Of a stretch of DNA of 64,000 bases, positions 5,181 through 63,156 are shown piece by piece. Position numbers and translations under genes: made by a program. Source of the stretch: Vescimonas fastidiosa (GTDB lineage: Bacteria > Bacillota > Clostridia > Oscillospirales > Oscillospiraceae); assembly GCF_018326305.1 (NCBI RefSeq), contig NZ_AP023415.1, forward strand, positions 310,001-374,000, written 5' to 3'. Numbering within the stretch: position 1 is the first letter of the stretch; the number at the start of each line of letters is the position of its first letter. The notes under the pieces were generated by a model. That model saw only the letters and a program-made list of their open reading frames with translations. It was not told the origin of the DNA and ran no database searches.

Positions 5181-5194
5181 GAAAGAATATACAG

Positions 5195-5278
5195 GTATCC
5201 CTACGTTGGCATTATCCAAATCAGGTTATCGGTCGAAGGTTTTGCCTTCCTCTCAGCCTGTAACACAAGCTCCCGTCT
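5195..5278 (-). promoter_or_regulatory. TPP riboswitch (THI element)
   Basis: On the minus strand the conserved cores are present in order: ACGGGAGCT at the 5' side, the box CTGAGAGG, the variable helix, then ACCTGATTTGGATAATGCC and AACGTAGGGA. These are the two TPP-sensing helices of the THI box. It precedes the whole thiW-thiX operon, so thiamin pyrophosphate should switch off salvage and uptake together. Confidence 0.97.
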
Positions 5279-5291
5279 AAAATGTGGTGTC

Positions 5292-9125: not shown

Positions 9126-9152
9126 GCTGATTCCTTTTACCGCTGAACCAAC

Positions 9153-9182
9153 GGGGCAGGGCGTGTCCCTGCCCCTTATTTT
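9153..9182 (+). terminator. Hairpin between rpsB and tsf
   Basis: GGGGCAGGG / CCCTGCCCC stem followed by TTATTTT. It may attenuate rather than fully stop transcription into tsf, since no separate promoter for tsf is obvious in the 30 bases that follow. Confidence 0.7.
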
Positions 9183-9210
9183 ATGAATCATTGAACTGGA
9201 GGATATAAAA

Positions 9211-44739: not shown

Positions 44740-45103
44740 TTTTATTCCTCCAAAATAATTCTATCCGCTATTTTCTTCCTCCGACAGCGGACACGCCGGA
44801 GAAGATAGAAGGTTTAACCGGAAAAGATCGATTTGCCGGTCGTGGTTAGGACTTCAATATCAAACCACCATCCTTCCGGCAAACGCAAAAAGCCGAAGCC
44901 AAGGCATAATGCGCCCTGTCTCCGGCAACTGGTTCGCTATAAATTGTATGAAATAAGACTTGACACGCTGAAAAAACGGCGCTATGCTCCTGCCGAGCCG
45001 AGCCGAGCCGAGCCGAGCCGAGCCGAGCCGAGCCGAGCCGAGCCGAGCCGAGCCGAGCCGAGCCGAGCCGAGCCGACAATAATTGTCGCATTTCCGTTTG
45101 CCA
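44740..45103 (-). promoter_or_regulatory. Long leader of the 519-residue surface protein
   Basis: Transcribed from the promoter at 45304-45332. It contains a small reading frame that crosses a pentanucleotide tract, a palindrome GACAATAATTGTC (45075-45087) and no other gene. No riboswitch class was recognised. Confidence 0.5.
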
Positions 45104-46632: not shown

Positions 46633-46661
46633 TTGAAATATGGCGCATTGCGTAGTATAAT
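46633..46661 (+). promoter_or_regulatory. Promoter of cobalamin-riboswitch gene 1
   Basis: -35 TTGAAA, 17 bases, -10 TATAAT. The same promoter, including spacing, is at 58358-58386. Confidence 0.85.
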
Positions 46662-46669
46662 AAAGAAAA

Positions 46670-46830
46670 CCAAATAACGGGACAGCGTGAGCCGGGTTTA
46701 TCCCGGCGGCGGAATGGGGTGAAAATCCCCGCGAGACGGTCACTGTGATGTCGATTTATTCGGCTAAGCCAGATACGCAATACGCTGCTCCCGGGTCGCT
46801 GCCAGTACCGGGGCCAAAGCTGTTATACGA
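46670..46830 (+). promoter_or_regulatory. Cobalamin riboswitch 1
   Basis: Core motifs of the cobalamin aptamer in order: GGGACAGCGTGAGCCGGG, GGGGTGAAAATCCCCGCG, GTCACTGTGATG, CTAAGCCAGATACGC, then a GC-rich arm. The sequence is about 95% the same as riboswitch 2. A terminator follows at 46836. It controls the giant surface protein starting at 47081. Confidence 0.93.
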
Positions 46831-46835
46831 ACGCT

Positions 46836-46871
46836 TCACCCGGCTGCTTTTTGGCAGCCGGGTGATTTTTT
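46836..46871 (+). terminator. Riboswitch 1 terminator
   Basis: TCACCCGGCTGC / GCAGCCGGGTGA stem followed by TTTTTT, the likely off-state platform. Confidence 0.9.
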
Positions 46872-46877
46872 GCTGCC

Positions 46878-46915
46878 AGGCACCATGGTGCCTCATGCTT
46901 TCCATGGAAAGCATG
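46878..46915 (+). repeat. Paired palindromes after riboswitch 1
   Basis: Two adjoining perfect palindromes: AGGCACCATGGTGCCT (46878-46893), then a 22-base one centred on TTTCCATGGAAA (46894-46915). In the second riboswitch copy the first palindrome reads AGGCAGTACTGCCT, also perfect, while the second is identical. Confidence 0.8.
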
Positions 46916-47080
46916 ATAGCCATTTCAAGCCGCCGGGGCGGGGGAGGACGGCAGACCCCTCCGCCCCGCTTTCCATGAGCCGGACGGGACGATGTAGGCA
47001 TCGCCCCAATGACAGCAAAAGCAACAGCCGCAAGGCGTTTACATAGAGAGAAGAGAAATAATTACAAGGAGGAAAAAGAA

Positions 47081-50000
47081 ATGAAAAAACGAATTCTTTC
47101 GTTTGTCCTGGCGCTGGTGATGGCGGTCTCGCTGCTGCCGGTCAGCGTGCTGGCGGCGGAGGATACACCTGCGGTGAAGTCCGAATACTCGCCGCCCGAC
47201 TCTGATGTGAAAGTGATTGGAACATACCAGGTTGACGAAGATACAACGTGGGATGTTCGACTGGTCACGGTGAATTCGACAAAGTATAATTATATTCAAA
47301 CACCTCTTGACACAAAGACAGGCGTGATTTCAACCGAGATGCACAAGGTTGGCGACCTTGTGTCCGGCAAATATGAGACGAGTCATTACAAAGGCTCGGA
47401 GACTTACGAGAGCGGAATCCGTCTCTACGATCAGATGAAAGACCATTTGAACTTGACTGTTGCTGACGCATTAGAAAGCACCGCAACGCAGACATGCTTC
47501 TATAACTTCAAAATAACGGGGCGGCCTAATAAAAAAAAAGTAAAGGAAATCTATGGACTTCTCATCATTCAGTGGACGGCAGGCGAGTTTGTTGCTCTGG
47601 ATAAGACGAAATTACAAGAGGCGATCGAAACTGCCCCCACTGCCGATAGCGGGAAGTATTACACCACTGGAGATAAGTTCAACGGAAAGAACACCAACCC
47701 AAAAGGCTTTTGGGCAGAATACCAAACGGAACTGAAAAGTGCAAAAAGAATCAATACAAGCACAAGCGTAACACAAGAGAAAATCGACAATGCCGTTGCC
47801 GGGCTGCAAGCCGCCATCGGCAACCTGATTCCCACCACGCAGGTGAACCCCACGATTCTCCATGAGACGTTGAGAATAATGCATGCCAGCGGATTCTACG
47901 AAGACGCAACAAAATACACTCCGAACACGTGGGCGCCCTTTGACGCGGCGCGCACGGCAGCCCATGCGCTGCTTGACGGGCTCTTCGATGAAAACGGAAA
48001 TGCCACCGCCGCCAATACAGCGGAAAAGCAGAGTGAGATAGACGCTGCGGCTGCTGCACTGACGGAGGCGGAGAAAAATCTGTATGGAACCTCTGAGGTG
48101 GAAGTAAATAAAAAGACCATCGAACGAATCAACACGTTTTTGGCGGACGTGATCGCACTGGCGGATACCGTTAAGCAGAGCGATTATACCGCCGAAAGCT
48201 GGGCGAAATTTGCCGCCGCCCTGACCGCCGCCAGGAACGCCAAAGCCCCCGTGCTGACGGACACCAAGGCGGACGATGCGTCTGTTGCCGCCTATAAAAA
48301 GGTGTATGAGGATCTGTATCATGAGTTCTACTGTGGTCTGACCCCGGTGGGCGAGATCACCGTCTCCCTCACATATCTTGACCCGGAGAAGGCGCGTCAG
48401 GGGAACGGTACAGGCTCTCGCGCCGGTGCCACCCAGCAGGTGACGCTCAGCGGCGACTACTCCCTCTATGCGGCGGTGGACTCGCTGAAAAACAAGCCGG
48501 CGAATCGAATTATCTGGCCGCATGCCAAGATATTTATCAACGGCGTCTACGTCACCGAGTGTTATATCAAGCAAGAAAGTTATGACTGGCGGAGCGATAC
48601 TGTATCCAAAAATTTGCGGCTGCACCCCGGTGACACGGTCGTGGTGGATCTCAATCTGGACCCGCAAACTGAGAACCAGCCCACCATCTACGACAGCAGC
48701 GCACACCTGTGGCAGTATATCGACAGTATAAAGACATCGCAGTTTGTCCAGAGCAACGGGCTGGAGGTGAAGGCGGGCGAACCGTTTACCCTGACCGTCC
48801 GGCAGGCAAAGGCGGCGTTGGGTCGCAGCCGTGCTGTCGAGGCGGGCGCAAACATGACCCTGTTTATCAGTGACATGGCGGAAGCCCCCGCCGATAACCA
48901 CCCCACCACGAAGCAGATTACTCAGAATGAAAAAGCGGTTATCACCGATGCAGACGGCAGTGCCAGTGTGACGCTGTACCGTGAGGGCTGGTATCTGATC
49001 GCTGCCTATGACCTGCGGGAGGACGAAAAGGGCAACATCGATAGCGGCGGTGACGGCAAAACCCCCAGCTACGCAGGTAAATACTATTCTGCAAACAGCG
49101 GCGCAGCCATTTGGGTTCATGTGAATACGCCCGACGACCTGTCCGCCGTGAAAAATACTTTGCAGTCCCAGCTGGACAAGGTGTATGCCGCCTATGCGGA
49201 AAACTATTTCCGCCCCGCTGTCTGGAGCGAACTCAAGAGTGCCTATGATACCGGCACCGCCGGTATCAAGGCTGCCGCCACCTCCGGCGATGCCAGTGAT
49301 GCCCAGCAGACGGCCATTGAAACCATCAGAAAGCTGCAAAACAACACCACCGCGGAGAATAAACAGAACCTGACCACCTTCCGCACGGCGCTGAACAAGC
49401 TGCCCGACGATGCCAGCCTGCTTTCCGCCGGTGTCAAGTCCACCGTGGACAAGCTGATCGCCTGCTATGAGGGCATGAGCGACTACCAGCGCAGGCAGCT
49501 GACCGGCGTGGAGCAAACCAAGTACAACAGTATCAAGGCTTTCGCCGATACCCACGAGACCTTCCCGGAGGACAAGGCGTTCAAGCTGACGGTGAACGTG
49601 GTGGGTGACACCGACGAAGTTACCGCCGCGCTGAACGATATGACCAAGTACCTGCGGGAGCATCCTGCCACCCAGGATCGCGGCAGCGGCGGACGCCGTG
49701 ACAACCCCATCCAGACCGAGCCGTTCTGCGTTTTCACGGCAGCCATCCCGGATAGCACGGAAGTGACAACGGCCGCCGCATGGACCACGGTGCGCTTTGT
49801 CTCCAGTATCGACTATGCGGCGTACTTCCAGACCCGTGCGGCGAAGGGGACGTTTACCGTGGACGGTGCGAAATGGAGCATCAGCAATGAGAACCTGCAC
49901 TTCACTACCGATGGCCTCGGTTATACCGTCAATGGCGGCTTGACTGTCACTATTGGCGGCCAAGCCTATGAGATCAAGAGCATTACCTATCAGGGAATTG

Positions 50001-52699
50001 ATCCCGGTTCTATAAAGTCCGGAAGGATGATTGCCTACGATGACACAGAGTATCTGGGCAAGAATAAGGACTATATCAATATGCGCTTTGAGGATGCGGT
50101 GCAGAGGTTCACCATGCCCTACAACGATGTGGCCGTGACCGTCACCTGGGGGCCTGTCAGCGAGAATGTGAACGCCACCAGGACTGCCGCTCTCTCCCGC
50201 CTGCAAACGCTGTATAACAGCCTGGGCGACAAGGCCGAGGCGACCTATCAGGACGGTGTCAAGGCCATCCAGGCTGCCACCTCCGTGGCCGCCGTGGAGA
50301 CTGCCTATCAGTCCGCTGTGGTGGCGATGAAGAAAGCCGCCAATAACTACGGCAAGGTGCAGGTCATTGTGGAGAACACCACCTATTCCAAGAAGGACGG
50401 AGCACCTTGGGACGGCACGCTGGTGAACACATGGGTCGATCTGTCCGCCGACAGCACCATGATGTCCTGTGTGGTCGATGCGCTGAAAACCAAGAACGCC
50501 ACGGTGGTGGGTGCAGAGAGCAACTACATCTCCTCCATTAACGGCCTCAAGGAGTTTGACGGCGGCAAGTCCTCCGGCTGGATGGGCACGCTGAACGATT
50601 GGTTCACCAACGAGGGCTTCGGTGCGTTCACGGTGAAGAGCGGCAAGCTGGCAAGCGGCGATGTGATCCGCATTATGTTCACCTTGAACGGCTATGGCGC
50701 CGACCTGGGCGGCACCTGGGGCAATTCCGACACTACCCTCAGCGCCCTGAAGGTCACCGGCGGTAAGCTGACCCCCAATTTCGTCTCCGGCGAGGCCGGC
50801 GGGCGGTATGACTATACTCTGGTCATCGATGGCGACAGCGGCAGCATCCGCCTGAGCCCCACCGCCGCCAACAAGAACTTCCAGGTCAAGGCCTTCCTCA
50901 ACGAGAAGGTTACCGATAAGACCGAGGGCAGCAGCTTCTTCAAGCGCACGGAGAGCATCCCCGTGAAGGTGGGCGACACCATCTATGTGGGCTGCGGCGC
51001 CAAGGGCTGGCTGAGCATGAATAATCAGAGCGGCAATACCCAGAGCAGCGACGGCACCTGGTATGTCCTGCATGTCGTCAGCGCCGACACCGGTGCGGAC
51101 TATGTCGTTGGGCTCATCGACGACCTGCCTGCCGCCGTGAAGTACGAGAACTATTCCGCCACCGAGGACGCCGTTTCCGCCGCCCGGGCTGCCTACGGCA
51201 TCCTCAGCAAGGCCGAGCAGTCCAAGGTGAGCAACCTCACCAAGCTGGAGAAGCTGGAGCAGGCCATTGCGAGCTTCCGCTCCGTGGACACTCTCAAGGC
51301 TCAGATTTCCAACCTGCCGGAGGCCGATAAGCTGTCCGTGGCCCACAGCCAGACAGTGGCCGCCGCCGAAAAGATGTTCCTCGCCCTGACGGCAGAGCAG
51401 AGGGACTGCCTCACCATCGCAGAGGTGGAGAAGGCCGAGGCCGTGTTTGCCGAGATGAAGAGAATCCTGGAGGCACCTATCAAGGACGCTGAGGCCAAGA
51501 TCGACGCCATCGGTGAGGTTACCCTGGAGAGCGGCGAGGCCGTCCTCACCGCCCAGGCCGCCTTCAACGCCCTGACCCCCGAGCAGCAGGCGCAGGTGAG
51601 CAACGCTGACAAGCTGCAATCTGCCGTCACCAAGCTGGCTGCCCTCAGAAAGGCAGTTTTGACCGAGAAGCTGGACGAACTCTATAAGACCACCGGCGAC
51701 TTCATGGCCACCCTGGGCACCCCCACGGTGAACTCCATCGGTGGCGAGTGGATGGTCATCGGCCTGGCCCGCAGCGGCCGCCCCGTGCCCGCCGGGTACT
51801 ATGACAATGTGGTAGAGTATGTGAAGGCCAAGGCTGACGCCAATGAGCGTCTGCACCCGGCCAAAGTCACCGACAACGCCCGGGTGATCCTGGCCCTCAC
51901 CGCCATCGGCAAGGATGTCACCAATGTGGGCGGCCACAACCTGCTCAAGGGCTTGGATAACATGGCCTATGTGCAGACTCAGGGCATCAACGGCCCCATT
52001 TTCACCCTCATCGCCCTGGATAGCCACAACTATCCGACCTCCGGTGATGTGACCCGGGAGAAACTGATTCAGGTCATCCTGGATGCCCAGCTCACCGACG
52101 GCGGCTGGGACCTGAGCGCTGAGAACGCCGACACCGATATGACCGCTATGGCCATCCAGGCTCTGGCACCTTACTACAAGACCAACGAGACCGTGAAGGC
52201 TGCTGTGGATAAGGCTCTGGAGGCCCTTTCCGCCCTGCAGCGCAATGACGGCGGCTTTGGCAGCTGGGGCACCGTGAACAGCGAGTCCTGCGACCAGGTC
52301 ATCGTGGCCCTTACAGCCCTGGGCATCGACCCCATCGCGGATAGCCGCTTTGTGAAGAACGGCAACACCGTACTGGACGCTCTGGCCGGGTTCTATGTAA
52401 CCGGCGGCGGCTTCCGGCACACCGCTGGCGGCGACCTGGACGGTATGGCCACCGAGCAGGGCTACTACGCCCTGGCATCGTACTACCGCTTCCTGAATGG
52501 CCAGACCAGCCTGTACGACATGAGCGATGTGGCCGTTCAGACCGCCGGCACCTCCGGCGGCGACAATAGCGGCAACGGCACCAACAACGGCGGCACTCCC
52601 GCCACCAGCGATACCGGCGTGCTGGTTTGGGTCATCGCCCTGCCCGTGACGGCCTTGGCCGCTGCCTTCGTCCTGAAGCGTAAGGAGCGGGAGGCGTAA
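47081..52699 (+). CDS. Giant cell-wall-anchored protein with transcobalamin-like modules, B12-riboswitch controlled
   Basis: 1872 residues. Signal peptide 1-26 (KKRILSFVLALVMAVSLLPVSVLAA). Residues 30-1080 are long helical and beta repeats with several FIVAR-like segments (DKTKLQEAIETAP...; NLIPTTQ; SDYTAESWAKFAAALTAARNAK). About 1090-1205 is a DUF4430 domain (VQVIVENTTYSKKDGAPWDGTLVN...SSGWMGTLNDWFTNEGFGAFTV), the fold of the C-terminal part of transcobalamin/intrinsic factor. A cadherin-like beta domain (about 1207-1330) follows, then helical spacers, then an alpha/alpha-barrel (about 1533-1810) with NDGGFGSWG and DTDMTAMAIQAL repeats like the N-terminal barrel of the same animal proteins. 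It ends with a TPATSDTG anchor and KRKEREA tail. ATG 47081 has AAGGAGG. A surface cobalamin-capture role is inferred. Confidence 0.87.
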   Translation: MKKRILSFVLALVMAVSLLPVSVLAAEDTPAVKSEYSPPDSDVKVIGTYQVDEDTTWDVRLVTVNSTKYNYIQTPLDTKTGVISTEMHKVGDLVSGKYETSHYKGSETYESGIRLYDQMKDHLNLTVADALESTATQTCFYNFKITGRPNKKKVKEIYGLLIIQWTAGEFVALDKTKLQEAIETAPTADSGKYYTTGDKFNGKNTNPKGFWAEYQTELKSAKRINTSTSVTQEKIDNAVAGLQAAIGNLIPTTQVNPTILHETLRIMHASGFYEDATKYTPNTWAPFDAARTAAHALLDGLFDENGNATAANTAEKQSEIDAAAAALTEAEKNLYGTSEVEVNKKTIERINTFLADVIALADTVKQSDYTAESWAKFAAALTAARNAKAPVLTDTKADDASVAAYKKVYEDLYHEFYCGLTPVGEITVSLTYLDPEKARQGNGTGSRAGATQQVTLSGDYSLYAAVDSLKNKPANRIIWPHAKIFINGVYVTECYIKQESYDWRSDTVSKNLRLHPGDTVVVDLNLDPQTENQPTIYDSSAHLWQYIDSIKTSQFVQSNGLEVKAGEPFTLTVRQAKAALGRSRAVEAGANMTLFISDMAEAPADNHPTTKQITQNEKAVITDADGSASVTLYREGWYLIAAYDLREDEKGNIDSGGDGKTPSYAGKYYSANSGAAIWVHVNTPDDLSAVKNTLQSQLDKVYAAYAENYFRPAVWSELKSAYDTGTAGIKAAATSGDASDAQQTAIETIRKLQNNTTAENKQNLTTFRTALNKLPDDASLLSAGVKSTVDKLIACYEGMSDYQRRQLTGVEQTKYNSIKAFADTHETFPEDKAFKLTVNVVGDTDEVTAALNDMTKYLREHPATQDRGSGGRRDNPIQTEPFCVFTAAIPDSTEVTTAAAWTTVRFVSSIDYAAYFQTRAAKGTFTVDGAKWSISNENLHFTTDGLGYTVNGGLTVTIGGQAYEIKSITYQGIDPGSIKSGRMIAYDDTEYLGKNKDYINMRFEDAVQRFTMPYNDVAVTVTWGPVSENVNATRTAALSRLQTLYNSLGDKAEATYQDGVKAIQAATSVAAVETAYQSAVVAMKKAANNYGKVQVIVENTTYSKKDGAPWDGTLVNTWVDLSADSTMMSCVVDALKTKNATVVGAESNYISSINGLKEFDGGKSSGWMGTLNDWFTNEGFGAFTVKSGKLASGDVIRIMFTLNGYGADLGGTWGNSDTTLSALKVTGGKLTPNFVSGEAGGRYDYTLVIDGDSGSIRLSPTAANKNFQVKAFLNEKVTDKTEGSSFFKRTESIPVKVGDTIYVGCGAKGWLSMNNQSGNTQSSDGTWYVLHVVSADTGADYVVGLIDDLPAAVKYENYSATEDAVSAARAAYGILSKAEQSKVSNLTKLEKLEQAIASFRSVDTLKAQISNLPEADKLSVAHSQTVAAAEKMFLALTAEQRDCLTIAEVEKAEAVFAEMKRILEAPIKDAEAKIDAIGEVTLESGEAVLTAQAAFNALTPEQQAQVSNADKLQSAVTKLAALRKAVLTEKLDELYKTTGDFMATLGTPTVNSIGGEWMVIGLARSGRPVPAGYYDNVVEYVKAKADANERLHPAKVTDNARVILALTAIGKDVTNVGGHNLLKGLDNMAYVQTQGINGPIFTLIALDSHNYPTSGDVTREKLIQVILDAQLTDGGWDLSAENADTDMTAMAIQALAPYYKTNETVKAAVDKALEALSALQRNDGGFGSWGTVNSESCDQVIVALTALGIDPIADSRFVKNGNTVLDALAGFYVTGGGFRHTAGGDLDGMATEQGYYALASYYRFLNGQTSLYDMSDVAVQTAGTSGGDNSGNGTNNGGTPATSDTGVLVWVIALPVTALAAAFVLKRKEREA

Positions 52700-52870
52700 G
52701 CCAAAAAGAAAAACCTAAGCGGCAAAATAAAACAGCACCCCCCCGGGGTCTCTTGCATAACAAGAGACCCCGGGGGTTTTTCTTTTTTACCGCCAACCGT
52801 TCAAAAGCCGCTGTTTTTCGCTTCCGGGTAACAAAAAAGCGCCGTATTGCTACGACGCTTTTGTCTTGCT
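52700..52870. repeat. Surface-cassette 3' block, copy B (internally deleted)
   Basis: Terminator of the 1872-residue gene (52737-52779) joined directly to the second conserved hairpin (52832-52862). The inner 330 bases present in copies A and C, with the small ORFs, are absent. Confidence 0.9.
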
Positions 52871-52900
52871 CGGAAGATGGAGCAAGGGAACGCTATTCCA

Positions 52901-55900
52901 TTATTTGCTGTACTTTTTCTTCCTGCTTACAACCGTTGTGCCGATGGCTGCACCGCCGCTGACAAACAGCAAAGCAAGCCACAAAGCAAAATTGCTGGAA
53001 TCGCCGGTCTGGGGAGGTTTGGAATCGTCCTTCAGCTTCGTCGTTACGGTGTCTGTTTTTTTGATTTCCTTTGTACCATTCTTGTCGCTGTAATATTTAC
53101 CGCAGTCGTCGCAGTACCAATACTCGATATTGCCCTCGGTGGCCTTTGTCGCCGCCTTTGCCGGGATGTGCTTTAAGTCGGTGTGGTTCTTCGCATCAAT
53201 CTCGCCGTATTCCGCACCACAGAACTCACACTTTGCCTTATCCTTGCAGGTCGCTTTCCCGCCGGTGTGCTCAGTCAGCTTCTTGCCGCAATAATCACAC
53301 TTGTGGTCTTTGTTATCGTCTGCACACTCGCTGATTATATAATCGCAGATATCACATTTGTGGTCTTTGTTTGCATCGATGCAATTCTCCGTTTGCGTGC
53401 CTGCAGAGCATCCGTCAACGGTGCAGGTGCGGGTATGGGTGCCGTCTTCGTTGGACGTCCAAGCGCCCCAGTCGTGATCCAGCGCATTGCCGGAGAAGAA
53501 GGTCGCCTCATCCGCCGTGCCCTCAGAGCTCAGACCGCAGACTGCGCAGGACTTGTAGTAGACCGCCTTTTCCGTGCAGGTGGCGGCGGATTTCAGGTAC
53601 TTTGCATCCACGGTCTCCGCCGTGAAGTCGTGCGCCGCCAGCTCGCCATAGGCTGCGTTGCAGTCCTCGCAAATAGCCTTTTCCGTACAGGTCGCCGTGC
53701 CGCCGTGGCAATCTTCGGTTTCCGTATGCGTCGCGTCGTGAGTGCAGACGCGGGTGTGTGTGCCGTCTTCGTTGGATGTCCAAGCGCCATAGTCATGGCT
53801 GAGCGGTTCGCCATTGGTAAAGGTTTCCGTGCCCTGCGCGCCGCAGGTGGAGCAGGACTGATAATATACCGCCGGGCTTGTGCAGGTGGCGGCGGATTTC
53901 AGCCGGTACTCGTTCACCTGATCGACGAAATGGTGCGGGCCAAGCTCGCCGTACGGGTGCTGGCAGACCTCGCAGAGCGCCGGGGCAAGGCAGTCGGCCG
54001 TGCCGCCCTGATGCGCGCCGCGATCCACCTCCAGATGGCAGCAGGTGTAGAATCTCCAGTGGCTGTCGGCATCGGTCTGCCAAGCGCCCGGATATTCGGC
54101 GTGACGGTTCGGATTCTTGTCCCCGCTTGCAAAGGTCGCTTCGCTGGCCGTTCCCTTGGAGGACAGCATACAGATCTTGCAGGATTTGTAATAGAGCGCG
54201 GGAGAGAGGCAGTTTGCTTCCTTGTACAGAAGTGCAGTGATTGCAGTTTCTCCCGTGAAGTCGTGCTCAGTCATTTTGATGCCGCAGGTGTCGCAGAAAT
54301 GGTTGCAGTCCGGGTCGGCGTGTTTGAGCCGCTCAGCCTCTCCGCCGCAGACGGTGCAGGTCTTCCAGTGACTGTCTTGGTTTGTGCTCCAGTCGCCGTA
54401 GGTGCAGCCGGCCGTTTCAACATGGCTGGCATCGTGGGTGCAGACGCGCTTGTGCGTGCCCTCCCCGTCGGGCGTCCAAGCGCCCCAGTCGTGATCCAGC
54501 GCATTGCCGGATTCAAAGGTCGCTTCGTCCGCCGTCCCCTTGGAGCTGGTACCGCAGACGGCGCAGGACTTGTAATACACCGCCTTTTTGGTGCAGGTCG
54601 CGGTGGATTTCAGATACATTTCTTCGGCCTTTTCCGCCGTGAAGCTATGCGCCTTCAGCGCGCCGTAGGGCTGACCGCAGTGGTCGCACACGGCCTGCTC
54701 CGTGCAGGTCGCCGTGCCGCCGGAGTGCTCGCGGAGGGTGATATCCTTGGAAACGCTGAAGCGGTAGCCCTCCGCCGTCGTGGCAGAGGCGATAAAGCGA
54801 AAGCCGGTTTCCTTCGCACTGTAGTACTTGGCCGGGATCGTTCCCGCGCAGACGCCGTCGACCGGGGTGATGGGTTTGCCGTCGCCAGTGTATTTAAACT
54901 CATAGCTGTAGACGGGATTCGTGCAGCCCTCCGGCAGGTTGAAAGAGAATTCGAAGTCCTGCGTGCGGCAGACGGCATCCGGCGCGGTGATGGTCAGGGT
55001 GGGGAGGTCCTTCTTTTCGACCTTATTGCCGCAGAATTCGCATTGTCCCCAATACTGGCCGTTTCCTGTCTGCCATTTGTAGGAATGGGACGAATGGACG
55101 GTCACGGTGAGCGTCGTGGAATTGCCCGCCTTGTCCGTGGCGACGACGGTCTGCGGGGTTCTCGCGTCGGTGAGGGTGATCTGATCCTGTTCGTTGGGGG
55201 TCACGGGCGTGCCGTTGACCGTCACGGTGTCCAGATACAGGTCGGTCACGGTGAGGGTCTTGTCGCCCTCGCCGCAGAAAACGTCGCCATTCTTCGCGCC
55301 GGTGATCGTCGGGGCGGTCTTGTCGATGATGATTTTCTCCGTGCATACAACGCCGTAGCGAGCAAGGAGCTTCGTCCCCAACTGTGCATAGATCACATAG
55401 GGCTTTCCCTCCTCCAGATTCAGAGATGCCGTATTGAAGGCGCCGGTATAAGGATAGTGATCGTGCCCGCTGCTGAAAAGGACATCCGCAGCTAGGCCAT
55501 TCGAGTAGAACTGATCGCCGACGGCGTACTCAAAATACGACAGTTCCTCCGGATGGGCGGTATTGATCTGTACGGTCTGATCTTCGTTGAAGAAGTGTTC
55601 CGTACCTTCGGAGCGGAAGCCGGTCCACTGGGAATCGCCCACGGAAATGGTGCTGTAATCAATGAAAACGCCGCTCCAAAAAGCAATGAAGGTAAGGCTG
55701 TCCTCGCCGCCCGTAGCAAAGTCGCCGTAGGTTTCTCCGCCCATGACTCTCCTATTGCCGATCAGCAGTGCTTGCAGCCTTTCATCATTTTCTCTTGTCG
55801 GCCTTGGCGTCAGGAGCTTCCAAATTTCATCCGTCCATTTGACGTTCTTCAATTCCGTGACCGTCGAGCCGTCCTGGTTGACGATACGGACGGTATAGTC

Positions 55901-57538
55901 GCTGCGCTCCTCCCAGACGGGGTAGAGCGTAAGCGCCTCGTTTTGCTCATAAATCGCGTTCAGGGAATAGTCCCTCTCGCCGCCGTCGTGCTTCGACCAG
56001 CCGACCTGGGTGTAGCCGAGGCGGGTAAAGAGCGCGCCTTGCAGCTCCAGCGCGTTGTTGTACTCCTTGTTCACCGTCTTGCTGTCGCCCGTGCCGTTTG
56101 CGCCGGGGGCGTAGGTCACGGGATAGGTCTTGGTTTGCAGCTGGAGCTGCTGCGCGGCGTTATAGCCGATGCTGTAGCCCGCGCTGTCCGGGGTAAAGCG
56201 GCTGGTGTAATCCGTGCCGTTGGCCTCGGCGAACACCACAGGAACTGCCGTGCTCTCGGTGGTCAGGCCGATCTCGGCGGCGCTGCCGAGATTATCCAAT
56301 GTAACGGTTTTTCCGTTGGCAAGATAGAGATTCGCGCCGGTGTTTCCGGTGATCTTCACGTCGCCGGTAAGGGTCAGGGAGCCTGCGCTCAGCGCGACCG
56401 CGCCCTTGCCGCCGGAGTTTCCGGTAATCCGGCCGGTGCCGAGGTTGGCGGTCGAGCCGTCCCGCGTCAGCGAGATCGCGCCGCCCTTGTTGTTCTTGAT
56501 TTCGACGGGAATGGCGCTGCTCTGCTGCGCCATCGTCACTCTGCCGTAGGCCGCGTCGATGCCCGCGCCGGTATTTTCCGAGATGGTGCCGCCGTAGAGG
56601 TTGACATTGGTATAATAGTCGCTTGTCGCGATGGAGGGCATGGGCCAGTGGGTGGCCGAAATACCCGCGCCGGTATTGCCGGTGATCGTACCGCCGTAGA
56701 GGTTGATGGTATCATCTGACGGGGTGATGGTGGACATCACGCCGTTCCTCTCGTTGCCGGAGATGATGCCGTCGTACATGTTGAAGGTTCCTCTGTTAAT
56801 TACACCGGGGCCGTACTTGGTGTTGCGGATGCTGCTGATGACCGGGCGATCTGTGGGATAGTCGGAGCTTTTTTGATAGTAGCAGCCGCCGTACATATTG
56901 AACGTGCCGCAGTTATAAACGCCGCAAACCGGGTCGTTGTAAACATCGCGGATGCCGTCCGTTTCCGAGCTGGTCATGCAGATGCTCACGCCGTAAAGGT
57001 CAAAGGTGGCAGTTCCGTCAACAGAAACAGCGGCGCAGCTGTCGCCGGTGATGAGGCCGCGGTCGCCGGAGAGCTGGCAATCCGTAAATACCAGACGCGC
57101 GTTATTCATCACATAGAAGGCGCTTTGTGCATCCGGCACATTGCAGGTAAGGGTATGGCCATGCAAACAGATCACAAACGTGCAGCCCTCCCAAACATGG
57201 ATTCGTTTCGTGAGGGTGACATCATTGGCAAGGTAATAGTAGAACGTTTTTCCCTTGTTGTTCGATGCTTTATAGTTGATCTCCTTAAGGTCCTCTTCCG
57301 ATCGGATCACGTTCATTTTTGAAATATCGCCGGAGGTATTTTCCTTCCCGTCCTTGGTGAAGTAGACCCCTTCATAGGCCGTGTGTCCGTTCATGGCTTT
57401 ATGATTGCTGATTCCTCCTCCGCAGACGCAATGCGCCGACGGATGCGGCCAATTAAGGCGAACCGCGCTTGCCGTGAGCGGGAAGAGCAGCGCGAGCAGG
57501 CAGAGCGCCAGCAGAATGGCGAACAGTCGTTTTTTCAT
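52901..57538 (-). CDS. Giant cell-wall-anchored beta-helix protein with Cys-rich repeats
   Basis: 1545 residues. Signal peptide 1-25. Residues 80-440 form a right-handed beta-helix (repeats like GTFNMYDGIISGN, TINLYGGTITGN, NLYGGTISENTG). About 473-560 resembles a Listeria/Bacteroides-type repeat (YAPGANGTGDSKT...GYTQVGWSKHDGG). Later beta domains include TVTDLYLDTVTVNGTPVTP. From about 830 to 1490 run roughly ten imperfect repeats of AxCTxxAxCxxCGxxYGxLxxH-F...YLKSxATCTxxAVYYKSCxxCGxSSxGT, with paired CxxC. It ends with a PPQTGDSSN anchor and RKKKYSK tail. It overlaps the preceding TetR gene (ATGA). Probably an adhesin; metal binding by the CxxC pairs is possible. Confidence 0.87.
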   Translation of the reverse strand: MKKRLFAILLALCLLALLFPLTASAVRLNWPHPSAHCVCGGGISNHKAMNGHTAYEGVYFTKDGKENTSGDISKMNVIRSEEDLKEINYKASNNKGKTFYYYLANDVTLTKRIHVWEGCTFVICLHGHTLTCNVPDAQSAFYVMNNARLVFTDCQLSGDRGLITGDSCAAVSVDGTATFDLYGVSICMTSSETDGIRDVYNDPVCGVYNCGTFNMYGGCYYQKSSDYPTDRPVISSIRNTKYGPGVINRGTFNMYDGIISGNERNGVMSTITPSDDTINLYGGTITGNTGAGISATHWPMPSIATSDYYTNVNLYGGTISENTGAGIDAAYGRVTMAQQSSAIPVEIKNNKGGAISLTRDGSTANLGTGRITGNSGGKGAVALSAGSLTLTGDVKITGNTGANLYLANGKTVTLDNLGSAAEIGLTTESTAVPVVFAEANGTDYTSRFTPDSAGYSIGYNAAQQLQLQTKTYPVTYAPGANGTGDSKTVNKEYNNALELQGALFTRLGYTQVGWSKHDGGERDYSLNAIYEQNEALTLYPVWEERSDYTVRIVNQDGSTVTELKNVKWTDEIWKLLTPRPTRENDERLQALLIGNRRVMGGETYGDFATGGEDSLTFIAFWSGVFIDYSTISVGDSQWTGFRSEGTEHFFNEDQTVQINTAHPEELSYFEYAVGDQFYSNGLAADVLFSSGHDHYPYTGAFNTASLNLEEGKPYVIYAQLGTKLLARYGVVCTEKIIIDKTAPTITGAKNGDVFCGEGDKTLTVTDLYLDTVTVNGTPVTPNEQDQITLTDARTPQTVVATDKAGNSTTLTVTVHSSHSYKWQTGNGQYWGQCEFCGNKVEKKDLPTLTITAPDAVCRTQDFEFSFNLPEGCTNPVYSYEFKYTGDGKPITPVDGVCAGTIPAKYYSAKETGFRFIASATTAEGYRFSVSKDITLREHSGGTATCTEQAVCDHCGQPYGALKAHSFTAEKAEEMYLKSTATCTKKAVYYKSCAVCGTSSKGTADEATFESGNALDHDWGAWTPDGEGTHKRVCTHDASHVETAGCTYGDWSTNQDSHWKTCTVCGGEAERLKHADPDCNHFCDTCGIKMTEHDFTGETAITALLYKEANCLSPALYYKSCKICMLSSKGTASEATFASGDKNPNRHAEYPGAWQTDADSHWRFYTCCHLEVDRGAHQGGTADCLAPALCEVCQHPYGELGPHHFVDQVNEYRLKSAATCTSPAVYYQSCSTCGAQGTETFTNGEPLSHDYGAWTSNEDGTHTRVCTHDATHTETEDCHGGTATCTEKAICEDCNAAYGELAAHDFTAETVDAKYLKSAATCTEKAVYYKSCAVCGLSSEGTADEATFFSGNALDHDWGAWTSNEDGTHTRTCTVDGCSAGTQTENCIDANKDHKCDICDYIISECADDNKDHKCDYCGKKLTEHTGGKATCKDKAKCEFCGAEYGEIDAKNHTDLKHIPAKAATKATEGNIEYWYCDDCGKYYSDKNGTKEIKKTDTVTTKLKDDSKPPQTGDSSNFALWLALLFVSGGAAIGTTVVSRKKKYSK

Positions 57539-58239
57539 GAGGCTTCCTCCGTTTCGCTGCCTTTCGACAGCTTAAAGTCATATTTCATTTCCAGCATTGC
57601 AAACAGCTTATACATAACCTCTGTGGCAATTGCCTTGATATCCAGTGATTGAATAAAGGCAAGCACCTTTGCCTGCTCCGCCTCCGGCACCCGATACACC
57701 CGCATCGCCGCCGTCAGAAAACGGCTGAGCTTGCGTTCCAGCGGAAAATGAATATCGCATTTTCTCGCCATATAGCTGCGCATCAGTCCTGCCGTGCCGA
57801 TTTCCATCTCGTAAAAGTCGCTGTCGCTGTAATCCGGGAAATTCCCGCCGAAGATCTGCTTCAGCTCTGCCGTGGTATGCAGATAGATATACTCCGATGT
57901 TTCAGGCAGGGAGTAGGCTTCAATGTAGATTTCCCGCAGGTTCTCGTTCAGCTCGGTCAGTGTCAGTTGGATCGCCGTTTCCACCGCATAGGCGTAAACC
58001 GGCGGCAGCTTGCTGTCTGCAATGCTTCTTGCCACGCCGAACTGTCCGCCGAACATCGTTTCGGTCAATTCCAGCAAAACTCTGTCCTTGGTCGGAAACA
58101 GATTCAAATAGCTTCCCCTTGCCACGCCTGCTTCCTCCACGATCTGACTGACAGAGGTGTTTTTATACCCCTGCTCCAGAAAGAGACGGACGCACACGGT
58201 CAGTATTTTCCTCTTTGTTTCACTGCTGTCTCTCCGCAA
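57535..58239 (-). CDS. TetR family regulator, coupled to the giant adhesin gene
   Basis: 234 residues. N-terminal TetR HTH (KRKILTVCVRLFLEQGYKNTSVSQIVEEAGVARGSYLNLFPTKDRVLLEL). TTG 58239 is the likely start, seven bases after GGGGAGG; a GTG at 58248 sits within the ribosome site itself. Its stop overlaps the start of the adhesin (ATGA), so both proteins are made together and the regulator probably controls its own transcript, divergent from the cobalamin-riboswitch gene. Confidence 0.85.
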   Translation of the reverse strand: MRRDSSETKRKILTVCVRLFLEQGYKNTSVSQIVEEAGVARGSYLNLFPTKDRVLLELTETMFGGQFGVARSIADSKLPPVYAYAVETAIQLTLTELNENLREIYIEAYSLPETSEYIYLHTTAELKQIFGGNFPDYSDSDFYEMEIGTAGLMRSYMARKCDIHFPLERKLSRFLTAAMRVYRVPEAEQAKVLAFIQSLDIKAIATEVMYKLFAMLEMKYDFKLSKGSETEEAS

Positions 58240-58357
58240 ATATATCACCTCCCCTCAAGCGTTTTAGTATGTATACCAATAATATCATAACAAGAACAAA
58301 AAGGCAAGTAGAATTTGAAACTTTACCTCCGTAAAGAGCAGCCTATATTTTTTCCTG

Positions 58358-58386
58358 TTGAAATATTGTGCATTGCGTAGTATAAT
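58358..58386 (+). promoter_or_regulatory. Promoter of cobalamin-riboswitch gene 2
   Basis: -35 TTGAAA, 17 bases, -10 TATAAT, as at 46633. Confidence 0.85.
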
Positions 58387-58394
58387 AAAGAAAA

Positions 58395-58552
58395 CCAAAT
58401 AACGGGACAGCGTGAGCCGGGTTATCCCGGCGGCGGAATGGGGTGAAAATCCCCGCGAGACGGTCACTGTGATGCCGGTTTATTCGGCTAAGTCAGGAAC
58501 GCAATACGCTGCTCCCGGGCCGCTGCCAGTACCGGGGCCAAAGCTGTTATGC
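58395..58552 (+). promoter_or_regulatory. Cobalamin riboswitch 2
   Basis: Same aptamer as riboswitch 1: GGGACAGCGTGAGCCGGG, GGGGTGAAAATCCCCGCG, GTCACTGTGATG, CTAAGTCAGGAACGC. It precedes the second transcobalamin-like gene. Confidence 0.93.
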
Positions 58553-58559
58553 GAACGCT

Positions 58560-58596
58560 TCACCCGGCTGCTTTTGGCGGCTGGGTGATTTTTTGC
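58560..58596 (+). terminator. Riboswitch 2 terminator
   Basis: CACCCGGCTGC / GGCGGCTGGGTG stem followed by TTTTTT. Confidence 0.88.
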
Positions 58597-58598
58597 CG

Positions 58599-58634
58599 AG
58601 GCAGTACTGCCTCATGCTTTCCATGGAAAGCATG
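58599..58634 (+). repeat. Paired palindromes after riboswitch 2
   Basis: AGGCAGTACTGCCT (58599-58612) then the 22-base palindrome (58613-58634) that is identical to the one at 46894. Confidence 0.8.
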
Positions 58635-58794
58635 ATAGCCATTTCAAGCCGCCGGGGCGGGGGAGGACGGCAGACCTTTCCCGTCCTGCTTTCCAGAAAA
58701 ATTTTTGCGCTATTTGTCGTTCCTTTCATGTTCCCGAGACCCGGGCCGTGCTGCAAAGAGTGCGGCCCGGGGGGAGGAAAACAGGGGGCGTGAG

Positions 58795-58980
58795 ATATAG
58801 GGTATTACAGATTGCCACGGGCGCGGTGCGCCCTCGCAATGACAATTCTCAAGAGGTCTGGCGTGGGCGGACAGGGTCGTCCGCCCCTACCGACGCGTTC
58901 AGGAAATGCGTAGGGGAGGGGCTCTGCCCCTCCCGCGGGCGGGGTAGAACCCCGCCCCTACGGAGGACAGAAAAAATTGT
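58795..58980. repeat. GC-rich intergenic hairpin elements
   Basis: A chain of short inverted repeats: GGGCGCGGTGCGCCC, GGGCGGACAGGGTCGTCCGCCC, GGGGAGGGGCTCTGCCCCTCCC-type and GGGCGGGGTAGAACCCCGCCC-type. No gene. Probably dispersed repeats of the REP kind within the 400-base leader. Confidence 0.6.
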
Positions 58981-59031
58981 GTGTGATTGCTTCGGCATTT
59001 ACATAAATAAAAAGAATGAAAGGAAAAAGAA

Positions 59032-62000
59032 ATGAAAAAGAGAATCATTTCTCTGCTGCTGGCGCTTATCATGGCGCTGTCACTGCTTCCCGTGAGCGTG
59101 CTGGCGGCAGACGACCACACAGGTCAGGTCCATGTGACGGTGGAAAACACCACCTGGGCCAAGGCCGACAACGCACCCTGGGAGGGGACGCTGGTGGACG
59201 AATGGGTCACCCTCCAGGCTGACTCCTCCATGATGAGCTGCATCAAGGCAGCGCTGGAGAAGAAAAACATCCCCTCCACCATCAATTCCAGCAGCTACGG
59301 CGGCGAGTACATCAGCGCCATAAACGGCATAGGTGAGTTCAGCGCGGGCAGCGAATCCGGCTGGATGGGTACGCTGAACGACTGGTTCACCAACCTCTCC
59401 TTCTCGGCCTTCACCGTGCAGGGCGGCACCCTGGCCGCCGGGGACGAGATTCGCGTCCTATACACCAAGACCGGCTTCGGCAAGGACCTCGGCAACGACT
59501 GGAGCACAGCCGGCAACACCGCCCTCTCCGCCCTGTCCTTCAGCAGCGGCACCCTGTCCCCGACCTTTGACAAGGCCACCACGGCCTACACCCTGACCCT
59601 CACCGCTCCGGCCAGTGTCAAGGTCTCCGCCACGGCGGACAACAAGTGCAACCAGGTCTATCTCTCCGTGGGCGCCACCAGCTATCGCCGCAGCGCCTCC
59701 GTCCCCCTGGAGAGCGGCACGGTGCTCACCGTCCGCTGCGGTGACGCCGCCGAGGCCAGCGGCAGCACCCCCGCCGTCACGCCCACGGTCTACACCGTCA
59801 CCGTGAAGGTAGACGCACCCCAGACGCCCCCGGCCCGCCGGGAGGGCGTACCCGCCACAGCGGCGAAAAATGTGTCTGTGAACAAGCCCTACACCCTGGA
59901 CCTGAGCACGATTTTCGCGGACATCAACGGCGACCCCCTGACCTATCTGGTCAGTGTCAACGGCGGCGCGTATGCCAAGGCTGATGCCAACTATACCTAT
60001 ACCCCCACCACGACGGGGGCCACCACCCTGACCTTCAAGGCCAACGACGGCCACGCAGACAGCACCGACACCTATACGGTGACGCTGACGGCGTATGACA
60101 AGATCAGCGTGGTATTCAAGGGAATTAAAACAAACGGGCTGACAAGCTTCAAGCTCTATGACTATGAGGCTGAACGCACCGAGAAAAACAATCTGCTCGC
60201 CAATGTGAGCCTGACAAACAAAACATATAAAGTCAGTCTCCCTATCGGTGCGTACTGGATTGAAGCATACGATAAATATGAACATAAAGTCGGCGCTATG
60301 GTTGTGACCGTAGAGCCGGGCACCACCGCATTTAATATACACGCAGTTTTCGGCTTGGGTAAATCTGGCTGGGTTTTCGGAACGGATTATGCGCTTTCTG
60401 TAACAGAGAAAAGCCCGGACGGGAAGGTAACTCGACAAATCGAACTTGGCGAAACCGGCGGCATGAATATGGCCGCAAATAAAAATATTATGCCCAGCAT
60501 TATCTACCTGGATGGGGACAGCATAAAAATCACGGCGACCCCCATCGGAGATAAAGCGTGGGACTATGAGGCGGAAACATGGAGCCCGATCAGAAGCACA
60601 CAGGACTGGAAATGTAGTTTCCGTTTCCCTAAATCTGCACAGCCGACCTACTCCTTTACCGTAAATGCCCCGGCTGGTTCTACCATCACCGGCGGCAGAT
60701 TTGATGTCTCGTATGAATATAACTATAATGTTATGAAGCGTGAGGTCATTAAGGACGATGAAACCGGCGTGACGGTAAAGTTTACCATCAAAGAGTCTGA
60801 TACTACAAAAGGAAACGCTTTCTTCCGGGTGCAGCATCCCGATGGCGTCACCTATTGGGACTTCTCGGGCATGAAACCTAAAGAGCTAACGGCGCACGGG
60901 TGGGAGTTTTTGACGCAGGCTGGAGACAACATCACGGTCACGGCAAAAGATCTGCACATTGGGGACAGCAGCTTCACCAAGAGTACGATTACCCGCTTTG
61001 AAAAGAGCCCCCAAGATCGCGGTGATATTTACCTAAACATCAATAGTAAGGGCTATAAGAACATGACCGTGGGCGAGACCTTTGGCTTGAATGTGTTCCG
61101 CAATTGGCAGGCCACCGATAGCTTTGCAAACGCCTATATCGCGCTGCCTGATATGCATTATCAGGTGGTCGATGTGAATGGCCAGCCCAGCGATGTGGTG
61201 TCCATCGTGCCGGAGGAGCTGAATAGCTGCTCTGCCACCATGACCGCCAATAAGCCTGGCACGGCCATCGTCCTGGTGACCTATGATACCATGTCCCATA
61301 TCCGAAGTGTGGACGGCACCGGCACCAAAGACTACACCGCCATCTGGCCGGAGTGTACCGGCGTGTTCGTGGTGACGGTGGATGCCGACGGCACCGCCAT
61401 CCAGACCAACATGGTTTTGGACCGCATGGACAGCACGGTTACGGACAAATCGTCTCTGGCACTGGATGCGGAGTTTGATATTCTGTTCTACCTGGGCGAC
61501 GACGGCGCGACTTACAGCTTCAAGCCCGAGGATGGCTGCACCGTCAGCGTGGCCCGCTCCACCGTCACCGACAAGATGACCTTCAGCGGCTTCACAACCC
61601 AGGGCGTCTCCGTAGCGGCGGACGGCACCGTCACCCTCAGCGGCCTCACCACCGGGCGGCACATCGTCAAGGTGGAGAAGGGCGGCGTGGCCACCTACCA
61701 GGTCATCACCGCCCGCCAGGTCACTTTGACCCTCCTGGACAAGGACGGCAACAAGCTGCCTGCGGACACCGCCTTTAAGCCCGGCGATCGGGTGACCCTG
61801 CAATTCTGGGGCCTGCTCAGCCCCCAGGAGAAAATGGCTACGATTTATAACAATAATTTTGCCCTGTACTATGAGGGAACGGACGGCAGCTATTTCCGCA
61901 CCTTTAAGGACGGCGATGTTTTCGGCGGCATGTATGACTTCTCCGGCAACCCCAATAACCAGCGCGTTACCATCACCATCCCCGAGAATTGGACGGGCAA

Positions 62001-63156
62001 GACTTACGACTTGACCGGTGGAATCAGCTTGGGCGGCTTTGGCGGCAAAGCCGGACACCGCGCCGTTTCGTATAAGTACGGTAGAGACCCCGTTTTTGAC
62101 GCGGGTAGAACCAGCGGCGTTCTCGCCCGCCTGCCTGCTGTGACCCTGCGTGTGCAGACCACCGTCCTGGACGAACTCTACAAGACCACCGGCGACTTCA
62201 TGGCCACCCTGGGCACCCCCACGGTGAACTCCATCGGTGGCGAGTGGATGGTCATCGGCCTGGCCCGCAGCGGCCGCCCCGTGCCCGCCGGGTACTATGA
62301 CAATGTGGTGGAGTATGTGAAGGCCAAGGCTGACGCCAATGAGCGTCTGCACCCGGCCAAAGTCACTGACAACGCCCGGGTGATCCTGGCCCTCACCGCC
62401 ATCGGCAAGGATGTCACCAATGTGGGCGGCCACAACCTGCTGAAGGGCTTGGATAACATGGCCTATGTGCAGACTCAGGGCATCAACGGCCCCATTTTCA
62501 CCCTCATTGCCCTGGATAGCCATAATTACCCCACTATGGGCGATGTGACCCGGGAGAAGCTGATTCAGGTCATCCTGGCCGCCCAGCTCAACGACGGCGG
62601 CTGGAACCTCAGCGGCGAGAACGCCGACACCGATATGACCGCTATGGCCATCCAGGCCCTGGCCCCCTACTATAAAACCAACGAGACCGTGAAGGCTGCT
62701 GTGGATAAGGCTCTGGAGGCTCTTTCCGCCCTGCAGCGCAATGACGGCGGCTTTGGCAGCTGGGGCACCGTGAACAGCGAGTCCTGCGCTCAGGTCATCG
62801 TGGCCCTGACGGCCCTGGGTATTGATCCTACCACCGACAGCCGGTTCATCAAGAACGGCAACACCGTACTGGACGCTCTGGCCGGGTTCTATGTCACCGG
62901 CGGCGGCTTCCGGCACACTGCTGGCGGCGAGCGGAACGGCATGGCTACCGAGCAGGGCTACTACGCTTTGGCTGCCTACTATCGCTTCGTAAACGCCCAG
63001 ACCCGGCTCTATGACATGAGCGATGTGACCATTCAGACCGGCGGCAGCAATACCCCCGCCACCGGCGATACCGGCGTGCTGGCTTGGGTCATCGCCCTGC
63101 CCGTGACGATTCTCGCCGCCGCCTTCGTCCTCAAGCGTAAGGAGCGGGAGGCGTAA
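59032..63156 (+). CDS. Cell-wall-anchored transcobalamin-like surface protein, B12-riboswitch controlled
   Basis: 1374 residues. Signal peptide 1-26. Residues 30-128 are a DUF4430 domain directly after the signal (VHVTVENTTWAKADNAPWEGTLVDEW...SGWMGTLNDWFTNLSFSAFTVQ), then a cadherin-like beta domain (about 130-245) and Ig/cadherin-like domains (260-350 and beyond). A prealbumin-like stretch (IKTNGLTSFKLYDYEAERTEKNNL, 365 on) and further beta domains follow. The alpha/alpha-barrel lies at about 1043-1320, nearly identical to that at 1533-1810 of the first protein. NTPATGDTG anchor, membrane stretch, KRKEREA tail. A weak ribosome site GAAAGGAAAAAGAA precedes ATG 59032. It lacks the long N-terminal half of the first protein. 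Predicted to bind cobalamin at the surface. Confidence 0.88.
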   Translation: MKKRIISLLLALIMALSLLPVSVLAADDHTGQVHVTVENTTWAKADNAPWEGTLVDEWVTLQADSSMMSCIKAALEKKNIPSTINSSSYGGEYISAINGIGEFSAGSESGWMGTLNDWFTNLSFSAFTVQGGTLAAGDEIRVLYTKTGFGKDLGNDWSTAGNTALSALSFSSGTLSPTFDKATTAYTLTLTAPASVKVSATADNKCNQVYLSVGATSYRRSASVPLESGTVLTVRCGDAAEASGSTPAVTPTVYTVTVKVDAPQTPPARREGVPATAAKNVSVNKPYTLDLSTIFADINGDPLTYLVSVNGGAYAKADANYTYTPTTTGATTLTFKANDGHADSTDTYTVTLTAYDKISVVFKGIKTNGLTSFKLYDYEAERTEKNNLLANVSLTNKTYKVSLPIGAYWIEAYDKYEHKVGAMVVTVEPGTTAFNIHAVFGLGKSGWVFGTDYALSVTEKSPDGKVTRQIELGETGGMNMAANKNIMPSIIYLDGDSIKITATPIGDKAWDYEAETWSPIRSTQDWKCSFRFPKSAQPTYSFTVNAPAGSTITGGRFDVSYEYNYNVMKREVIKDDETGVTVKFTIKESDTTKGNAFFRVQHPDGVTYWDFSGMKPKELTAHGWEFLTQAGDNITVTAKDLHIGDSSFTKSTITRFEKSPQDRGDIYLNINSKGYKNMTVGETFGLNVFRNWQATDSFANAYIALPDMHYQVVDVNGQPSDVVSIVPEELNSCSATMTANKPGTAIVLVTYDTMSHIRSVDGTGTKDYTAIWPECTGVFVVTVDADGTAIQTNMVLDRMDSTVTDKSSLALDAEFDILFYLGDDGATYSFKPEDGCTVSVARSTVTDKMTFSGFTTQGVSVAADGTVTLSGLTTGRHIVKVEKGGVATYQVITARQVTLTLLDKDGNKLPADTAFKPGDRVTLQFWGLLSPQEKMATIYNNNFALYYEGTDGSYFRTFKDGDVFGGMYDFSGNPNNQRVTITIPENWTGKTYDLTGGISLGGFGGKAGHRAVSYKYGRDPVFDAGRTSGVLARLPAVTLRVQTTVLDELYKTTGDFMATLGTPTVNSIGGEWMVIGLARSGRPVPAGYYDNVVEYVKAKADANERLHPAKVTDNARVILALTAIGKDVTNVGGHNLLKGLDNMAYVQTQGINGPIFTLIALDSHNYPTMGDVTREKLIQVILAAQLNDGGWNLSGENADTDMTAMAIQALAPYYKTNETVKAAVDKALEALSALQRNDGGFGSWGTVNSESCAQVIVALTALGIDPTTDSRFIKNGNTVLDALAGFYVTGGGFRHTAGGERNGMATEQGYYALAAYYRFVNAQTRLYDMSDVTIQTGGSNTPATGDTGVLAWVIALPVTILAAAFVLKRKEREA

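Follow-up and report, generated by a model that had tools for sequence, protein, structure and literature searches.

What are two giant secreted proteins for when each is encoded behind an RNA leader that resembles a cobalamin riboswitch? The question is raised by a 64-kb window (the whole stretch of DNA analyzed here, positions 310001-374000 on contig 1) of the Vescimonas fastidiosa genome, which measures 2.5 Mb and is rated 97 percent complete. Gene 1 (47081-52699, plus strand) encodes a protein of 1872 residues and gene 2 (59032-63156, plus strand) one of 1374; both have a signal peptide, as judged by eye, and both combine DUF4430, a domain of the transcobalamin C-terminal type, with an alpha/alpha toroid. 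An earlier note on this DNA had suggested that the pair captures cobalamin or other corrinoids at the cell wall and hands them to a membrane importer. Our analysis upholds what it described, namely promoter, aptamer and terminator units and the domains in both genes. The two genes are not an isolated pair: the genome contains seven loci of this kind. Since these surface proteins have the fold of a human B12-carrier domain and lie behind vitamin B12-type RNA switches, they probably catch B12, and the inference of corrinoid capture at the center of the earlier note is likely to hold.

Riboswitch-like leaders and the genes they precede

The two leaders have the same layout on the plus strand. In front of gene 1 lie a promoter-like pair, TTGAAA-17-TATAAT (46633-46661; 11 of 12 matches, against a shuffle mean of 0.4), a cobalamin-riboswitch-like aptamer (46679-46823), and an intrinsic terminator with a U run (46836-46871; hairpin 46836-46865, stem -26.1 kcal/mol). 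The corresponding elements of gene 2 are found at 58358-58386 (again 11 of 12 matches), 58404-58547, and 58560-58594 (hairpin 58560-58588, -22.0 kcal/mol). At gathering score, Rfam reports nothing cobalamin-like in the whole window; its sole match is a thiamine pyrophosphate (TPP) riboswitch (5181-5283, minus strand, 58.3 bits). This result is not read as absence, because both leaders contain matches to the adenosylcobalamin (AdoCbl) riboswitch core below the Rfam cut-off of 50 (46706-46778, 20.3 bits; 58438-58497, 23.9 bits) and a covariance model, R1, also indicates otherwise.

R1 was built from seven aligned V. fastidiosa leaders and finds eight copies in the genome. The leaders of gene 1 and gene 2 score 183.8 and 182.3 bits, values that are high by construction given that R1 was built from seven of those eight copies, these two included. 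Seven copies precede the seven loci that encode DUF4430 together with a toroid, and all seven loci have a leader; at one of them, the paralog C2_30 (L023:990-5712, minus strand), DUF4430 and the toroid lie in two overlapping frames. The eighth leader (C2:21370-21514), near-identical to the rest, precedes a gene for an 807-residue protein (L067:6471-8894) whose signal peptide and anchor are similar. When seven of the eight leaders were folded as transcripts cut in mid-terminator, the sequence after aptamer helix P1 paired with the 5' arm of the terminator, as a candidate anti-terminator, in three (W1, W2 and C2_30); the remaining four folded otherwise.

The leaders are a conserved RNA. In 150 genomes of the family to which V. 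fastidiosa belongs, its own included, R1 gives 73 matches in 44 genomes and 37 of 106 genera. Over 49 aligned copies, own included, 29 of 35 pairs have changes on both sides, the covariation score is 0.621 (0.164 when shuffled, at most 0.072 in slid versions) and standard pairs make up 94.1 percent of paired cells, figures that are favored because the alignment was fitted to the R1 model. Predicting the fold anew from that alignment gives 27 pairs, of which 20 show double changes. The leaders keep the core helices of cobalamin riboswitches and the CACTGTGA and AAGTCAG boxes, which they have in common with the Rfam families RF00174 and RF01482, as they do their place before B12 genes.

Membership of either family at gathering score was not found. 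Across the V. fastidiosa genome, RF01482 gives six matches (E up to 5) of 17.5-24.9 bits, all below the cut-off of 50 and all upstream of a same-strand DUF4430. The clade stays under the Rfam cut-offs everywhere scanned: in the window, in the genome, and in the relatives, where no cobalamin riboswitch was detected at cut-off in 12 loci with R1 matches (12 of 40 stretches). Because B12 genes or DUF4430 lie downstream, the pairs covary, and the Rfam thresholds miss the clade, R1 represents, as judged from sequence, a variant branch within the class of cobalamin riboswitches. An RF00174 match elsewhere in the genome (C1:1440767, 25.6 bits) was discounted as a probable chance match; no clear gene follows it in the part that was read.

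The genes downstream point the same way. A same-strand DUF4430 lies within 8 kb downstream of 35 of the 73 R1 matches, against an expectation of about 0.5 that is rough because an even spread and a genome size of 2.3 Mb were assumed; controls gave 4 upstream on the same strand, and 0 and 2 on the opposite strand. Without the V. fastidiosa genome the link holds for 28 of 65 matches. The 44 genomes in this count were picked for their R1 matches. An independent test was made with Rfam's own RF00174 in 119 genomes of the phylum, 37 of which, V. fastidiosa among them, have DUF4430. The other 36, picked for DUF4430, contain 126 RF00174 matches above cut-off (in 33 genomes), and 40 of these are followed within 8 kb by a same-strand DUF4430; about 0.5 would be expected, again roughly, with an even spread and sizes of 2.5 Mb (one of 6.8 Mb) assumed, and controls gave 5, 1 and 0. 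An upstream RF00174 covers 65 of 81 DUF4430 matches and 29 of the 36 genomes. Left out of the phylum count were the ten DUF4430 rows of V. fastidiosa itself and 5 of 131 RF00174 rows below cut-off; the 81 DUF4430 rows retained include 2 that fall short of the Pfam cut-off. Another surface domain, Big_2, served as a control and gave 17 of 121 matches, some of which share contigs and stretches with DUF4430 matches. The R1 copies, their covariation and both association counts support the earlier suggestion of cobalamin-type control.

B12 genes are found at some R1 loci where DUF4430 is missing from the 8 kb downstream. Outside V. fastidiosa, 42 of the 65 R1 matches fall in the 40 stretches, in which genes were called by a longest-frame script and chosen genes were scanned; 20 of these loci are without a downstream DUF4430, and chosen genes were scanned in 16. 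B12 genes were found in six of the 16: CbiD in L092 and L097, with CbiF/CbiG also in L097; a CbiF fragment in L101; a cobalt chelatase CbiK fused to S-layer homology (SLH) repeats in L094, together with a BtuF-type protein, and in L096; and CobN, 8.6 kb downstream, in L103.

The CbiK fusions (L094:2322-4205 and L096:6466-8445), both behind R1 riboswitches, each carry three SLH repeats, and the predicted chelatase appears to be located outside the cell. Just after the R1 riboswitch of L101, a single open frame (8713-9879) encodes some 40 residues from a CbiF-type methyltransferase together with a 2-hydroxy-3-oxopropionate reductase.

Domains and surface attachment

DUF4430 (PF14478) was found above the Pfam cut-off of 23.8 bits in both proteins, at residues 1125-1188 of gene 1 (50453-50644, plus strand; 37.1 bits) and residues 30-148 of gene 2 (59119-59475, plus strand; 29.0 bits). 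Its sequence profile matched no PDB chain significantly, and no B12-carrier family is among the Pfam matches of gene 1 and gene 2. In the structure model of the gene 2 domain, strands (E) and helix (H) follow in the order E7-14, E27-35, H42-52, hairpin E57-61/E67-72, E85-90 and E114-120. When the model was overlaid on known structures, the best 14 matches were all haptocorrin, intrinsic factor or transcobalamin. Modeling thereby shows a transcobalamin-type fold for DUF4430, in agreement with the C-terminal beta fold named in the earlier note. Counted among the nearest known counterparts, a protein of Ruminococcus gnavus, RUMGNA_00854 (PDB 3u7z), is listed only as a putative metal binding protein.

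The toroid occupies about residues 1528-1808 of gene 1 (51662-52504, plus strand), where it was assigned by profile and by identity to gene 2, and residues 1043-1323 of gene 2 (62158-63000, plus strand), where profile and structure model agree. The PF00432 scores are below the cut-off of 26.5 bits (21.5 for gene 1, 26.4 for gene 2), yet the gene 2 toroid is modeled confidently (pLDDT 91.8), and the alpha/alpha barrel anticipated from the sequence is present. The two toroids are 84.7 percent identical over 367 aligned positions including the tail; by toroid identity, the nearest named relatives are uncultured Oscillibacter records (91 percent). The toroid profile also matched S-layer proteins, via SLH segments within the alignment.

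As the earlier note stated, the beta domain comes first: DUF4430 precedes the toroid in the Pfam match order of both proteins. The animal carriers haptocorrin, intrinsic factor and transcobalamin have the alpha domain first and then the beta domain. The window proteins differ from them further in having hundreds of residues between the domains and in their wall anchoring. Gene 2 has the full pattern of a sortase anchor, an xPxTG motif (TPATG, 63052-63066, plus strand) followed by a hydrophobic stretch and a basic tail. TPATG is present in seven of eight paralogs in the genome, which contains five sortase-family matches. Gene 1 ends in an anchor-like TPATS (52595-52609, plus strand) with a hydrophobic and basic tail, so that the sortase-type motif ascribed to both proteins is complete in gene 2 only.

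Probable corrinoid capture and competing explanations

The importer for a captured corrinoid is likely to be encoded by energy-coupling factor (ECF) genes, as suggested by gene neighborhoods in V. fastidiosa and its relatives. At locus L021 of V. fastidiosa, a 471-residue DUF4430 protein is found beside a double ECF ATPase (361.7 bits to TIGR04520, cut-off 315) and an S component, together with a 294-residue protein without a family match. In one relative (L084), a riboswitch is followed by a LysM protein, a toroid, a DUF4430 lipoprotein, CbiQ, and a 902-residue protein with two ATP-binding cassette (ABC) ATPases and an S component. Another (L087), with the weakest R1 match (33.6 bits), has a giant with toroid and DUF4430, a second toroid protein, and an ECF ATPase with S component. 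A third (L076) has a PQQ-type propeller, a 318-residue protein, a DUF4430 lipoprotein, a 293-residue membrane protein without Pfam match, and an ABC ATPase; the 318-residue protein between propeller and DUF4430 was considered as a toroid and does not match the toroid profile.

A run of DUF4430 and toroid-like proteins also extends on one strand from C3:81664 to about C3:107300 in V. fastidiosa (L026, L027) and recurs in relatives (L189-L192, L195). Several copies add secreted dockerin and cohesin-like proteins along with transglutaminase and propeller proteins, DUF58 and a propeller-dockerin protein are seen as well, and in L190 the run extends into DUF4430, CbiQ and an ATPase. A cobalamin riboswitch reaches the cut-off in two of the five relatives' stretches (L189, 49.1 bits; L192, 36.6 bits); the V. 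fastidiosa copy, at 28.7 bits, is below the cut-off of 31.5. As for the need for B12, the genome encodes the two subunits of a lysine 5,6-aminomutase, one matched at 410.9 bits (cut-off 280) and the other at 730.4 bits (cut-off 600). A corrinoid-protein-like gene scores below its cut-offs, and a search of the genome did not find CbiD. The membrane importer proposed in the earlier note is therefore likely, with ECF genes next to a DUF4430 protein in V. fastidiosa and behind one riboswitch in relatives.

We consider it probable that gene 1 and gene 2 encode members of a family of surface proteins that are repressed by cobalamin and capture corrinoids, in a scheme that would work as follows. At low cobalamin the leader would let transcription run through, and with enough cobalamin the aptamer would bind it and the terminator would end the message. 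The protein would be secreted, the gene 2 product being joined to the wall by sortase. Its transcobalamin-type DUF4430 domain would bind a corrinoid on one face; the other side would be closed off by the toroid, located far along the same polypeptide or belonging to a neighboring one. The corrinoid would then pass to the membrane-held DUF4430 protein and on to the ECF importer. Neither the long spacer nor separate chains need be an obstacle, because separately made domains of human transcobalamin join upon addition of cobalamin; the isolated beta domain itself binds cobalamin (PMC5599065; this and the other papers are cited from excerpts). Transcobalamin has a cobalt-binding histidine that most intrinsic factors and haptocorrins are without (PMC11107200).

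Several observations weigh against corrinoid capture. Among the R1 matches, 38 of 73 have no DUF4430 within 8 kb (for at least two, G057:C237 and G029:C56, the contig ends within about 3 kb), and 10 of the 16 partly scanned loci show no B12-specific gene among the genes scanned, which include an iron hydrogenase (L089), a sensor kinase (L102) and an oligopeptide transporter (L107). In 7 of the 36 phylum genomes, no DUF4430 follows any RF00174 match. For two of the ten DUF4430 matches in V. fastidiosa (C1:190116, adjoining ECF genes, and C1:1464885) no riboswitch was found nearby, and a third (C3:96948) sits 15 kb after an RF00174 match below cut-off. The DUF4430 of the paralog C1_234 is above the cut-off in one scan (24.1 bits) and below it in another (18.7 bits), and the motif of gene 1 is without the sortase glycine. 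The protein L067:6471-8894, although behind one of the eight leaders, has neither DUF4430 nor toroid. Finally, the closest folds to the gene 2 toroid model are class II terpene cyclases, no transcobalamin or other B12 carrier is among the best 50 structure matches listed, and in a search of its sequence profile against PDB, squalene cyclases were matched and no B12 carrier was.

The last two points, together with the long and differing middle regions of the paralogs, would fit proteins that bind some other ligand, such as a glycan, host protein or polymer, with cobalamin serving only to inform the cell, for instance of where in the gut it is. We regard this as unlikely, given that DUF4430 overlays specifically on B12 carriers, follows cobalamin riboswitches phylum-wide, and sits with ECF importer genes. 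Corrinoids might alternatively be bound and then kept at the wall, as a store or to deny them to competitors, and feed no importer. Consistent with this, no importer gene was recognized beside the seven giants, as judged by eye without a library scan of the neighbors, and no riboswitch was found at the ECF and DUF4430 genes of V. fastidiosa. Such withholding seems quite improbable, because toroid, DUF4430 lipoprotein and ECF genes stand behind a single riboswitch in L084 and because V. fastidiosa has a B12-dependent enzyme and no CbiD match.

That the toroid is a class II terpene cyclase-type enzyme, with DUF4430 delivering or holding its substrate, would suit its best structural and sequence matches and a D-x-D-x-T stretch shared without change by all 43 toroids aligned, but is very improbable: DXDD, the acid motif of these cyclases, reads DTDM in gene 2, with methionine for its last aspartate, and the protein is extracellular, where to our knowledge no prenyl substrate is expected.

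Neighboring genes and wider significance

Between gene 1 and gene 2 lies a gene on the minus strand (52901-57538) for a 1545-residue, PQTG-ended surface protein, and a TetR-like gene (57535-58248) adjoins it; both were assigned by eye. Upstream of gene 1, a C-terminal piece at 41675-42589, with no R1 leader ahead, has an end much like that of L067:6471-8894 and is apparently a decayed copy. A perfect array of 17 GCCGA units (44992-45076) stands about 250 bases ahead of a minus-strand surface protein gene (43180-44739), whose expression it could render phase-variable.

Proteins of this class have been predicted before, which weakens the description of them in the earlier note as a little-described Gram-positive counterpart of surface B12 binders. 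In the excerpts available, Burroughs et al. 2007 (PMC1796856) describe, among SLBB proteins, secreted and in several cases wall-anchored Gram-positive proteins that combine a transcobalamin C-terminal domain with an alpha/alpha toroid, in either order. They pointed to CbiO/CbiQ-like neighbors and to the absence of B12 synthesis, and suggested that the proteins scavenge B12 and that the domain pair was transferred to animals. The word riboswitch is absent from those excerpts; the control by cobalamin riboswitches, the presence of seven giants within a single genome, a clade of leaders missed by Rfam, and phylum-wide counts are added here. Beyond that paper, nothing was found on riboswitch-linked bacterial DUF4430 or transcobalamin-like proteins in the open-licence PMC literature, and the excerpts of PMC2667541 and PMC5997447 make no mention of such carriers in bacteria.

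BtuG and BtuH of Bacteroides constitute an outer-membrane system. They are likewise B12 surface binders that are encoded in cobamide-riboswitch loci and aid an importer, and they differ in their domains, a beta-propeller being named for BtuG (PMC8941943, in excerpt). The same source, from 2022, calls B12 uptake in Firmicutes less known than in Bacteroides.

More tentatively, the riboswitch clade below cut-off, found in 37 of the 106 sampled genera, may control modular and recombining split transcobalamins held at the wall. The related operon, with its cohesin/dockerin, beta-propeller and transglutaminase proteins, may add a docking-assembled Gram-positive surface complex that harvests corrinoids for the ECF importer; we offer this wider picture as a possibility that is open to doubt. 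New here are the evidence for riboswitches, the variant clade of the switch and the extent of the family, the protein class itself having been predicted in 2007. The riboswitch link makes that prediction a testable regulon and provides a likely function for a domain still named as unknown in Pfam. In addition, it offers relatives of those bacterial proteins that, as proposed in 2007 (PMC1796856, in the part cited), gave animals their B12 carriers.

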